From assembly GCF_014697615.1 (NCBI RefSeq), contig NZ_JACJSD010000008.1, positions 1 through 64,000 on the forward strand: a DNA stretch of 64,000 nucleotides. Direction: 5' to 3'. Made by a program: the position numbers and the translations under genes. How positions within the stretch are numbered: the first letter of the stretch is position 1; every line of letters starts with the position of its first letter. Shown here piece by piece: positions 51,643 through 54,680 of the stretch. Below the pieces are notes generated by a model, which worked only from the letters and a program-made list of their open reading frames with translations, searched no databases and had not been told where the DNA came from. This DNA is from Nostoc sp. FACHB-280. Lineage in GTDB: Bacteria; Cyanobacteriota; Cyanobacteriia; Cyanobacteriales; Nostocaceae.

Positions 51643-52188
51643 TTAATTTATGCCTTTGAGTTTGCGAGTGCTATCAACTAAACTTTGAGCAAAATCATCA
51701 AATCTTTGGGAAAGTTTTTCGTCTAATAACTTACCTTCTGGGTTAAAAGCACCCCAGGCTTGGCCGATCGCGATTTGTTCTGGAATCACCCAACCATGTA
51801 CCCAGCGCACAATTAAGCGTAAATCATTCAGGGCGTTGCTATTAGATTGACCTCCCAAAACGCTAATAAGTCCTGTGACTTTCCCTGATAGTTCTTCAAA
51901 ACTCATTAAATCGAGGGCGTTTTTTAATACGCCACTCACGCCGCCGTGATACTCTGGTGTTGCCAAAATCAATCCATCTGCACCACTGACAGTATCACGC
52001 AGGCGTTTAACATCAGGATATTCGGGATATTCTTTTTCACCGTTGCAAAATGGTAGCTGGAGTTGCCGTACATCCAAAATTTCTACATCTGCACCTATGG
52101 CTTGTAATCTTTGGGCTGCTACTTGTAAAGCCAACTGTGTGTAAGAGTTAGGTCTTAAACTACCACCAATGCCAACAATTTTTACCAT
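51643..52188 (-). CDS. NAD(P)H-dependent FMN reductase
   Basis: This 181-residue flavodoxin-like reductase has the FMN phosphate loop VGIGGSLRPNSYTQLAL at the N-terminus and the isoalloxazine-binding ATPEYHGGVSGVLKNALD near residue 75. This is the SsuE/ArsH-like NADPH-dependent FMN reductase family. It reduces free or bound FMN. A functional link to the flavin-dependent monooxygenases near 61-64 kb (which need FMNH2) or to other flavin enzymes is possible but not shown by position. It is monocistronic. Confidence 0.85.
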   Translation of the reverse strand: MVKIVGIGGSLRPNSYTQLALQVAAQRLQAIGADVEILDVRQLQLPFCNGEKEYPEYPDVKRLRDTVSGADGLILATPEYHGGVSGVLKNALDLMSFEELSGKVTGLISVLGGQSNSNALNDLRLIVRWVHGWVIPEQIAIGQAWGAFNPEGKLLDEKLSQRFDDFAQSLVDSTRKLKGIN

Positions 52189-52691: not shown

Positions 52692-54680
52692 ATGCCAGCA
52701 AAAAAAGGGTTAAATGATATGAAAAATTTTAGGAGACAGGCATTGATGCAACAGCGATCGCCCATAATCAAACCAACTAAGGCCAAACCAGAGTTAGACA
52801 AAACCCGCCAAAAGCGAACAAAAAAATCTGTGGCTTGGTCTGGGGCGTTAATCGCCAGTTTAATGATGTTGCCAAATATGGTGGGCGGTACGCCAGCCCT
52901 GGCACAAAGAGCTGATCGCGAAATTAGTTATGGCGAGTTGATTAGAAGAACCGAAAAAGGCGAAGTTAGAAAAGTTGAGTTAGACGAAACTGAACAAACC
53001 GCCAAAGTATATTTACAAGGGCAGAAGCCAGATACACCACCGCTACAAGTCAGACTGTTAAATCAAAATACAGAGTTAATTAATAAGCTCAAAGCCAAAA
53101 ACGTCGAGTTTGGGGAAGTTTCTTCTGCTAACAGTCGGGCGGCTGTTGGCTTGTTAATCAACTTGATGTGGATTTTGCCACTGGTAGCATTAATGTTACT
53201 GTTTTTGCGCCGCTCCACCAATGCTTCTAACCAAGCGATGAACTTTGGCAAATCCAGAGCGCGTTTTCAAATGGAAGCCAAAACAGGGGTAAAATTTGAC
53301 GATGTGGCAGGTGTAGAAGAAGCCAAAGAAGAACTCCAAGAAGTTGTCACCTTTTTGAAGCAGCCAGAAAGATTTACGGCTGTTGGCGCACGGATTCCCA
53401 AAGGTGTGTTGTTAGTCGGGCCGCCAGGTACAGGTAAAACATTACTGGCAAAAGCGATCGCAGGGGAAGCTGGTGTACCATTTTTTAGCATTTCCGGTTC
53501 GGAATTTGTGGAAATGTTTGTTGGTGTGGGTGCTTCTCGTGTGCGCGACTTGTTTAAAAAAGCCAAAGAAAATGCGCCTTGTTTAATATTTATTGATGAA
53601 ATCGACGCGGTAGGTAGACAACGGGGTGCAGGTATCGGCGGTGGTAACGATGAGAGGGAACAAACTCTCAACCAATTGCTGACCGAAATGGATGGTTTTG
53701 AAGGTAACACAGGCATTATTATTATTGCTGCTACCAACCGTCCCGATGTTTTAGACGCAGCCTTATTACGTCCTGGACGCTTTGACAGACAAGTCATTGT
53801 GGATGCGCCAGATTTAAAAGGGCGATTAGAAATCTTGCAAGTTCATGCCCGAAATAAGAAAATTGATGAGAGTGTATCATTAGAAGCGATCGCCCGGCGG
53901 ACACCGGGTTTTACAGGTGCAGATTTAGCCAACTTACTCAACGAAGCCGCCATTCTCACCGCCAGAAGGCGCAAAGATGCCATCACCATCTTAGAAATTA
54001 ATGATGCAGTTGACCGCGTAGTAGCGGGGATGGAAGGTACACCTTTAGTAGATAGCAAAGTCAAACGCTTAATTGCTTATCACGAAATTGGTTACGCCAT
54101 CGTCGGAACCTTGCTTAAAGACCATGACCCAGTGCAAAAAGTCTCTTTGATTCCGCGCGGACAGTCACGGGGTTTAACTTGGTTTACCCCCGATGAAGAA
54201 CATTTTCTCATGTCGCGATCGCAGCTATTAGCCAGAATTACCGCCAGATTAGCTGGAAGAGCCGCCGAAGAAGTAATTTTTGGTTTACCAGAAGTCACTG
54301 GTGGAATGCGCGAAAATCGCAAATTAGAATTAGCGACAGCCATAGCCCGACAAATGGTCACACAGTATGGTATGTCCGAAATTGGGCAATTTTGCTTAGA
54401 AGCCCCCAATAGCGAGGTATTTTTAGGGCGTGACTGGATGAACAAATCCGAATATTCCGAAGAAATTGCCTCCCAAATTGATCGCAAAGTGCGGGAAATT
54501 GTCAATCAATCCTATGACACCGCAAAACGTCTGATTCAAGAAAACCGCACATTAGTTGACCATTTAGTAGAGATTTTGATTGAACAAGAGACCATTGAAG
54601 GAGAACAATTCCGTCAAATTGTCGCTGAATATCAAAGTCAACCGATAGCTGATGGAGCGACAGTAGCTGTACCTAATTAA
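52692..54680 (+). CDS. FtsH-like AAA membrane protein with an apparently lost zinc site
   Basis: This 662-residue protein has two N-terminal hydrophobic segments ([16 protein letters not shown], about 49-64; and [21 protein letters not shown]) flanking a periplasmic/lumenal domain. The AAA module is intact: GPPGTGKT at 243-250, [11 protein letters not shown], and the second region of homology with [20 protein letters not shown]. The protease domain has HEIGY (H464, E465, Y468) where HEXGH is required, and K544 (or N542, depending on alignment) where the third zinc ligand, Asp, is expected; two extra residues sit there. Proteolysis is therefore unlikely, while unfolding or partner-scaffold function remains. 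ATG 52692 is taken; M19 (ATG 52746), with GGAG upstream, is an alternative. Confidence 0.85.

Follow-up and report, generated by a model that had tools for sequence, protein, structure and literature searches.

The DNA analyzed here, a stretch of 64,000 nucleotides from Nostoc sp. FACHB-280 (the window), encodes an FtsH1 protein whose M41 protease domain has lost two zinc ligands while its ATPase motifs have stayed intact. I use here the term FtsH1i for this protein and for its counterparts in the other species of the genus that share this condition, nine species in all. Probably, the M41 domain was changed in the ancestor of these nine species, likely via recombination, and FtsH1i now serves as an ATP-driven but non-cutting partner of FtsH3.

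A Degenerate Zinc Site and an Intact ATPase

With FtsH proteins, an AAA ring threads substrate and an M41 ring then cuts it. The window protein carries both domains on one chain, i.e., it has the FtsH architecture, and its Pfam scores for both are far over cut-offs (Table 1). NCBIfam model TIGR01241, the label of which is ATP-dependent zinc metalloprotease, matches at 770 bits, where the cut-off is 600. The AAA motifs are indeed intact, as the initial annotation of this DNA had judged them to look: Walker A (GPPGTGKT), Walker B (LIFIDEID), and the second region of homology all are present, with K249, D302-E303, R360, and R363 retained. Residue numbers here, as in that annotation, are counted from the ATG at 52692. 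Met10 is the probable start, since the N-terminus of the A. subtropica orthologue is MKNF.

The claim that HEIGY stands in place of HEXGH was confirmed upon rereading of codons and residues. The stretch in question is YHEIGYA (codons tat cac gaa att ggt tac), with H464 and E465 kept and with Y468 at the second histidine, and the HEXXH zinc motif thus is absent. Crystal structures have an aspartate as the third zinc ligand of FtsH. This residue too is gone, with N542 occupying the Asp column of the alignment and with a loop two residues longer than that of the canonical TTGAGDDLQ type. The initial annotation had offered either K544 or N542 for this position; the loss of Asp and the two extra residues are borne out, and it is N542 that aligns. 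For E. coli, the third ligand is given as Glu479 in an excerpt of PMC8197885. By my own mapping, the equivalent probably is E526, a glutamate that the window protein retains.

If an FtsHi is an FtsH relative that possesses an AAA domain but not HEXXH, as it is defined in an excerpt of PMC6460958, then the window protein is an FtsHi. It is from the ligands that I infer a probable loss of proteolysis. An AF2 model, of mediocre quality (mean pLDDT of 67.7, pTM of 0.41), served only to see that two M41 helices are predicted.

Table 1. Features of ftsH1i and its surroundings, in window coordinates.
Feature	Position	Strand	Remarks
ftsH1i gene	52692..54680	+	662 aa from first ATG; TIGR01241 match
Probable true start of ftsH1i	Met10, 52719	+	gives 653 aa
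Second hydrophobic (membrane) segment	53148..53207	+	approximately residues 153-172, by eye; AF2 helix 148-177
AAA ATPase domain	53406..53801	+	residues 239-370; Pfam PF00004, 160.9 bits; motifs intact
Likely recombination boundary region	53970..54095	+	residues ~427-468; amino-acid and silent change points
Peptidase_M41 domain	54048..54620	+	residues 453-643; Pfam PF01434, 208.2 bits; active site degenerate
HEIGY for HEXGH	54081..54095	+	H464 to Y468
EEHFLMSR segment	54195..54217	+	diagnostic of the pseudo-M41 domain; common to G115
Third-ligand loop	54297..54329	+	residues 536-546; Asp lost, two residues inserted
NADPH-dependent FMN reductase-like gene (named by eye)	51643..52188	-	divergent, beside ftsH1

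Identity as FtsH1 and Replacement of the Canonical Form

The initial annotation left the paralogue unnamed. A tree of 114 proteins keeps two type-B clades apart (SH-aLRT of 99 and 97) and has the nine as a clade (100) within FtsH1. By tree, the window gene thus is FtsH1, a type-B subunit, and it is this same subunit that lacks its site among the Prochlorococcus loci considered below. That it might instead be an FtsH2 copy is ruled out by this tree. Gene conversion from the genome's own FtsH2 is ruled out as well, with the M41 domain being 67% identical to that of FtsH2 versus 69-70% to those of congeners.

Class names in these trees, which took in no Synechocystis PCC 6803 sequence, are anchored by primers printed for strain MED4. 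The primers for MED4 FtsH 1, 2, 3, and 4 best fit loci of the FtsH2, FtsH3, FtsH4, and FtsH1 clades, respectively, with both primers of a pair together giving 3, 3, 11, and 0 mismatches. MED4 FtsH 1-4 are, in the same order, equated with PCC 6803 FtsH2, FtsH3, FtsH4, and FtsH1 (PMC6300248 and PMC11262661, in excerpt), with the homology of FtsH 4 to PCC 6803 FtsH1 described as less obvious than that of the other pairs (PMC6300248, in excerpt). FtsH1 and FtsH2 are of type B, and FtsH3 resembles type A, according to an excerpted review (PMC11287208). There, Synechocystis FtsH1/3 is an essential heterocomplex, found mainly in the plasma membrane, which degrades Fur and controls Fur along with other repressors.

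M41 genes number four in 10 of the 11 genomes of the window genus and five in G010, the extra gene of which is of FtsH4 type by score. Each genome also has FtsH2, FtsH3, and FtsH4, and by this count no second FtsH1 is found among the 11. The pseudo form therefore has replaced FtsH1 rather than being an addition to it. FtsH3 displays HEAGH plus Asp, and FtsH2 displays HEXGH plus Asp, in all 11.

The FMN-reductase-like gene (cluster c1) occurs in 11 of 14 neighborhoods, including those of G003, G007, and A. subtropica, and is missing from those of G002, G115, and Rhizonema. Found upstream, it marks the same ftsH1 locus in pseudo and in canonical congeners. No single accessory gene recurs across all 14 of the neighborhoods examined. 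At two loci (L124 in G004, L141 in G009), ftsH2 and ftsH1i are divergent and lie approximately 1.5 kb apart, with the FMN-reductase-like gene between them. The two genes are on separate contigs in G000 and approximately 287 kb apart in G006. The G006 match to the window protein begins at residue 26 and has one in-frame TAA inside of the matched stretch.

Conservation and Constraint

Sixty relatives were searched, 10 of them in the window genus, and in 8 of those 10 the best match has HE[IV]GY along with the two-residue insertion, i.e., 9 of 11 genomes of the genus with the window included. The remaining two congeners, G003 and G007, retain HEVGH and Asp, and the other three M41 proteins of the window genome have HEAGH, HEIGH, and HEVGH. 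A pattern for YHE[LIVMF]GYA is matched in 9 of 217 family genomes, all of the window genus, and in none of the 206 others. The initial annotation had proposed a candidate pseudo-protease of FtsHi kind, and had suggested checking orthologues for conservation of the Tyr and the insertion. Both are kept in nine species, and this shared loss of ligands supports the proposal of a conserved candidate. HEXGH in orthologues, which that annotation had named as evidence against its reading, is what G003, G007, and, with the exception of G115, the other family orthologues that were read possess, but it is not what is found in the nine.

Open frames within the nine run to 627-672 aa. Nei-Gojobori omega among them stands at 0.013 (AAA) and 0.062 (M41b, the second part of M41), compared with 0.011 and 0.045 between G003 and G007, both of which are canonical. 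As omega is low across this range (0.013-0.062), both halves of ftsH1i are under purifying selection, and the constraint on the dead M41 domain is not far short of that on a working one. That the lesion reflects sequencing error, or a pseudogene in decay, is refuted by these observations and hence of negligible probability: the same Tyr and insertion are fixed in nine genomes, which is not what sequencing error does, frames are open, and omega is low.

Origin of the M41 Domain

Over residues 60-445, window FtsH1i is 96-97% identical to the FtsH1 of G003 and G007, versus 69-70% over the M41 part. Silent divergence, as scored at codons with the same amino acid, follows a similar division. Between the nine and G003/G007 it is 0.304 for AAA and 0.512 for M41b with FtsH1, versus 0.252 and 0.299 with FtsH3 and 0.270 and 0.320 with FtsH2. 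Between G003 and G007 themselves, FtsH1 values are 0.313 and 0.281. Among FtsH1, FtsH2, and FtsH3, raised silent divergence thus is limited to the M41 of FtsH1. This favors replacement of M41 by recombination, as fast evolution in place would leave silent sites at the level seen among congeners rather than at 0.51. A lone CAC-to-TAC change at Y468, where the initial annotation had noted TAC against the CAC that would give His, likewise is unlikely given that M41 differs by approximately 30% from that of congeners, with silent divergence raised too.

Amino-acid change points fall at residues 457-468 in all 18 pairs compared, and silent change points at 426-439 in 14 of the 18, with the other four at 466, 467, 481, and 617. 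In 14 of the 18 silent tests, no more than 19 of 300 shuffles reached the observed score, and in the remaining four 39 to 61 did so. As shuffle support varies in this manner, single pairs are weak and it is the FtsH2/FtsH3 control that carries the argument.

A further FtsH1 without a canonical motif is that of G115, a genome of another Nostocaceae genus, which has HEVGK and the loop TSGGGKPEGREIEY. The window protein and G115 share HFLM, IGQF, and LVDHLVE, where G003 has QGLI, LGPL, and ALENLVD; G002, one of three pseudo rows compared, has VVDRLVE in place of LVDHLVE. With a tree of the N-terminal part plus AAA, the nine are found with G003/G007 (99.9), whereas with an M41 tree lacking the lesion columns they are found with G115 (98). 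When each part is constrained to the alternative arrangement, M41 loses 33 log units (p-AU of 0.054) and N+AAA loses 22 (p-AU of 0.084), so that AU tests of a mosaic are borderline. A careful, all-column tree has the nine with G115 (100/96), away from G003/G007, and the quick 114-protein tree, which was without G115, has them joined to G003/G007 at 99, a conflict which the domain trees reconcile if the gene is a mosaic. With G115 included in the M41 tree, the nine plus G115 have as their closest neighbors canonical sequences from other genera (L031/L036 type, 100); once G115 is removed, the nine are placed, with weak support (73), inside a larger canonical group to which G003/G007 belong. As this placement shifts depending on whether G115 is in or out, long-branch pull is possible.

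A different account, one that concerns origin only, is that M41 diverged in place following the loss of catalysis, with the likeness to G115 being convergence and with no recombination involved. This strikes me as somewhat doubtful, even if AU tests fail to reject it firmly, the M41 tree without G115 leaves the nine, at a support of 73, unseparated from the canonical group that holds G003/G007, and both the second-His change (Tyr in the nine versus Lys in G115) and the length of the insertion (two versus four residues) differ. That is, divergence in place sits poorly with the silent rise of FtsH1 (0.30 to 0.51, as compared with only 0.25 to 0.30 for FtsH3 and 0.27 to 0.32 for FtsH2), with the three segments that the window protein has in common with G115, and with rates inside the nine being slow again. 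Most likely, to judge from these sequence comparisons, M41 was replaced by recombination with a diverged source, an event too old for the direct source to be seen.

FtsH1i as a Probable Non-Cutting Partner of FtsH3

The proposed series of events is as follows. In the ancestor of the nine species, the M41 of FtsH1 would have recombined with a pseudo-M41 of the kind also found in G115, and this change would have cost the protein two ligands, the second His and Asp. The membrane anchor and the full AAA motor of FtsH1i have been retained. By analogy with Synechocystis, FtsH1i would then assemble with FtsH3 in a mixed ring, within which FtsH1i would hydrolyze ATP as well as grip and thread substrates, and FtsH3 alone would cut. 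Not all catalytic sites are required for thylakoid development in Arabidopsis, and a cyanobacterial FtsH heterocomplex is reported as 1:1 (both from an excerpt of PMC6019477, the former citing Zhang 2010). A mixed ring, that is, may tolerate the loss of cutting by one subunit type if the other cuts, which is the reason for proposing FtsH1i as a non-cutting partner of FtsH3.

Were FtsH1i to function without FtsH3, it might be a non-proteolytic, ATP-driven unfoldase or membrane-protein motor, in the manner proposed for the plant FtsH12-FtsHi-Ycf2 import complex. Intact AAA motifs next to a degenerate protease domain would suit such a role, and plant FtsHi 1, 2, 4, and 5 do form complexes with Ycf2 and FtsH12 and are thought to be involved in substrate transport (PMC9020784, in excerpt). 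All 11 genomes, however, encode the known partner, FtsH3, in intact form, the neighborhoods examined share no accessory gene, and M41 is under constraint (though a motor might need M41 as a scaffold), and I consider this role to be unlikely. Quite unlikely is that FtsH1i is a regulator or decoy, holding FtsH3 in dead or weak rings and thereby lessening proteolysis of, for example, Fur. Such a role would be in line with the control that Synechocystis FtsH1/3 exerts over Fur and other repressors (PMC11287208, in excerpt), and with canonical FtsH1 having been replaced rather than duplicated. As FtsH1i is the sole FtsH1, however, and as FtsH1/3 is essential in Synechocystis, a pure inhibitor presumably would not be tolerated.

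Lastly, FtsH1i might still cut, with Tyr or some other residue substituting for the lost ligands. While H464 and E465 are retained and M41 is under purifying selection, two ligands are gone together, and other FtsH1 lineages have Lys or Arg at the second His and some have Asn, Gln, or Arg at the first. Continued cutting thus is very improbable, and a non-cutting partnership with FtsH3 is the reading that I prefer.

Loss of FtsH1 Sites in Other Nostocaceae and in Picocyanobacteria

A phylum-wide DNA pattern was matched in 7 of 386 genomes, i.e., G000, G009, G115, G542, G161, G054, and G383. The frames in the last four, as far as read, are other than FtsH, with one of three identical matches read in G383. 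As this pattern demands HE along with A, G, or T as the first base of the last codon, it is blind to lesions of NEVGR type, and its low yield therefore is no proof of rarity. Of 217 family genomes, 11 contain a DNA match to the EHFLMSR segment, namely those of the nine species, G115, and G029. The G029 matches, five near-identical ones of 23 bases on C90, C120, C135, C380, and C796 (L221, L232-L235), suggest a repeated element.

For reading of FtsH1, 34 family genomes were taken, chiefly ones in which no more than two canonical motifs had been counted, although not G126 and G150 (54% and 72% complete, two motifs each). FtsH1 could be read in 31, and only that of G115 is without a canonical motif. 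Low canonical-motif counts as indicators of further losses within other Nostocaceae thus are ruled out, as 30 of the 31 keep the motif. Three genomes (G124, G176, G184) have an FtsH2-type match only, which is either FtsH1 loss or an assembly gap, and G234 has an FtsH1-like match without FtsH2, again either real loss or an assembly gap. For the remaining family genomes the evidence is motif count alone, apart from loci among the relatives read.

The initial annotation knew of no described cyanobacterial example. One FtsHi has in fact been printed for Prochlorococcus marinus SS120 (Mishra and co-workers; PMC6460958 and PMC8197885, in excerpt), with the same excerpts giving none for chlorophyll-a cyanobacteria and naming Synechocystis and Anabaena cylindrica. 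Further such FtsH were found in five of eight Prochlorococcus genomes other than SS120, all eight being, by title and size, apparently single-cell or partial assemblies, with NEVGR in four and QIIGR in one (L258). With an AAA-only tree, the Prochlorococcus pseudo-FtsH joins Synechococcus L104 (99/99) within a picocyanobacterial clade (100/100) that stands apart from FtsH2, FtsH3, and FtsH4, its deeper attachment being weak (44/90). Canonical members of this picocyanobacterial group (L089, L095, L096, L104) are inside of the FtsH1 clade of the 114-protein tree (99). One NEVGR locus (L279) fits both of the printed MED4 FtsH 4 primers with 0 mismatches, for a product of 203 bp, as printed.

Fifty picocyanobacterial FtsH1 loci were read, consisting of the 30 best matches plus 20 hand-picked ones from a search of 251 genomes, and a ligand is lost in 21 of the 50, which, since these loci were selected, is no frequency. 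These have NEVGR in 16 of 16 from one genus, plus one each of NEVGK, QQVGR, HEIGK, HEAGR, and RESAR (L291 and L304-L307). Such variety suggests either several losses or drift following one. Basic residues are seen repeatedly at the second His, as also in G115. L306 (G374:C1:286921-288615, HEAGR) has one in-frame TAA outside of the 581-aa frame that contains the motif, which may be a matter of start site or of decay. Walker A variants of FtsH1 are seen as well, with SPGTGKT, LPGTGKT, and APGTGKT for PPGTGKT in L307 (G599), L298 (G474), and L311 (G462), and L259 in G574 is a partial M41 match without a readable frame.

Across 236 distinct cyanobacterial sequences, a set biased by deliberate sampling of FtsH1 and of picocyanobacteria and still containing near-identical rows, a zinc-site or catalytic residue is lost in 36 of 132 FtsH1, 0 of 44 FtsH2, 0 of 47 FtsH3, and 0 of 13 FtsH4. 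Class assignment relied on BLAST against reference sequences, of which L005 and L237 are missing from the set. The count omits duplicates, rows that lack a P-loop or do not exceed 400 aa, and 14 loci from outside the cyanobacteria. All 36 pseudo-FtsH1 retain the Walker A Lys, the Walker B Asp-Glu, and the SRH arginines. With the AAA tree there are four losses, i.e., two picocyanobacterial, one in the window genus, and one in G115. The two picocyanobacterial losses are parted by a single canonical row (L297) with support of 51, and may be one event; and if the Nostocaceae domain was exchanged, then the origins of FtsH1 site loss may number two.

There is, in my estimation, about an even chance that the following broader picture holds in full: FtsH1 is a recurrent natural pseudo-protease, with at least two losses, with FtsH2, FtsH3, and FtsH4 staying intact, and with FtsH1/3 then cutting via FtsH3 only, and a dead M41 domain has in addition been exchanged between Nostocaceae genera, grafted onto a native motor.

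Known Systems and Implications

FtsH1i has the same clade, domain order, and AAA motifs as Synechocystis PCC 6803 FtsH1 (slr1390) and canonical orthologues, and differs from them in its lost second His and Asp, with identities as measured against congeners G003/G007. The FtsHi, or FtsH 4, of Prochlorococcus likewise groups with FtsH1, has lost its zinc site, and keeps its AAA motifs, but its lesion is different (NEVGR), its origin on the AAA tree is separate, and its lineage is one of reduced genomes, with the genomes read excluding SS120. Plant plastid FtsHi 1, 2, 4, and 5 are by description similar to FtsH1i in combining a mutated HEXXH with an AAA domain, but are of mixed ancestry (PMC9020784, in excerpt) and form a set with FtsH12. 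Given this mixed ancestry along with the FtsH1 placement of the window protein, a common ancestry with the plant FtsHi lineage is unlikely.

Tyrosine is found at the first His in PDB 7tdo_A, with its YEAGH aligned to HEAGH of 2ce7, whereas with FtsH1i it is at the second. The E. coli FtsH mutant H421Y is reportedly protease-dead. In comparison with such laboratory His-to-Tyr changes, FtsH1i is natural, and involves the loss of Asp and a change of the whole domain as well.

Pseudo-protease FtsH already was known from plants and from one Prochlorococcus strain. A non-exhaustive search of the open-license literature found no Nostocaceae pseudo-FtsH, no linking of cyanobacterial cases to FtsH1, and no domain exchange. 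Engineered plant mutants have been used to ask if a mixed FtsH ring needs all of its subunits to cut. Nature seems to have run this same experiment in more than one lineage, and with a complex that Synechocystis cannot do without. The printed Prochlorococcus FtsHi would become part of an FtsH1 pattern, and annotation by family model (TIGR01241) gives the name zinc metalloprotease to what likely is not a protease. If the exchange is true, then a dead protease domain has been moved by recombination.
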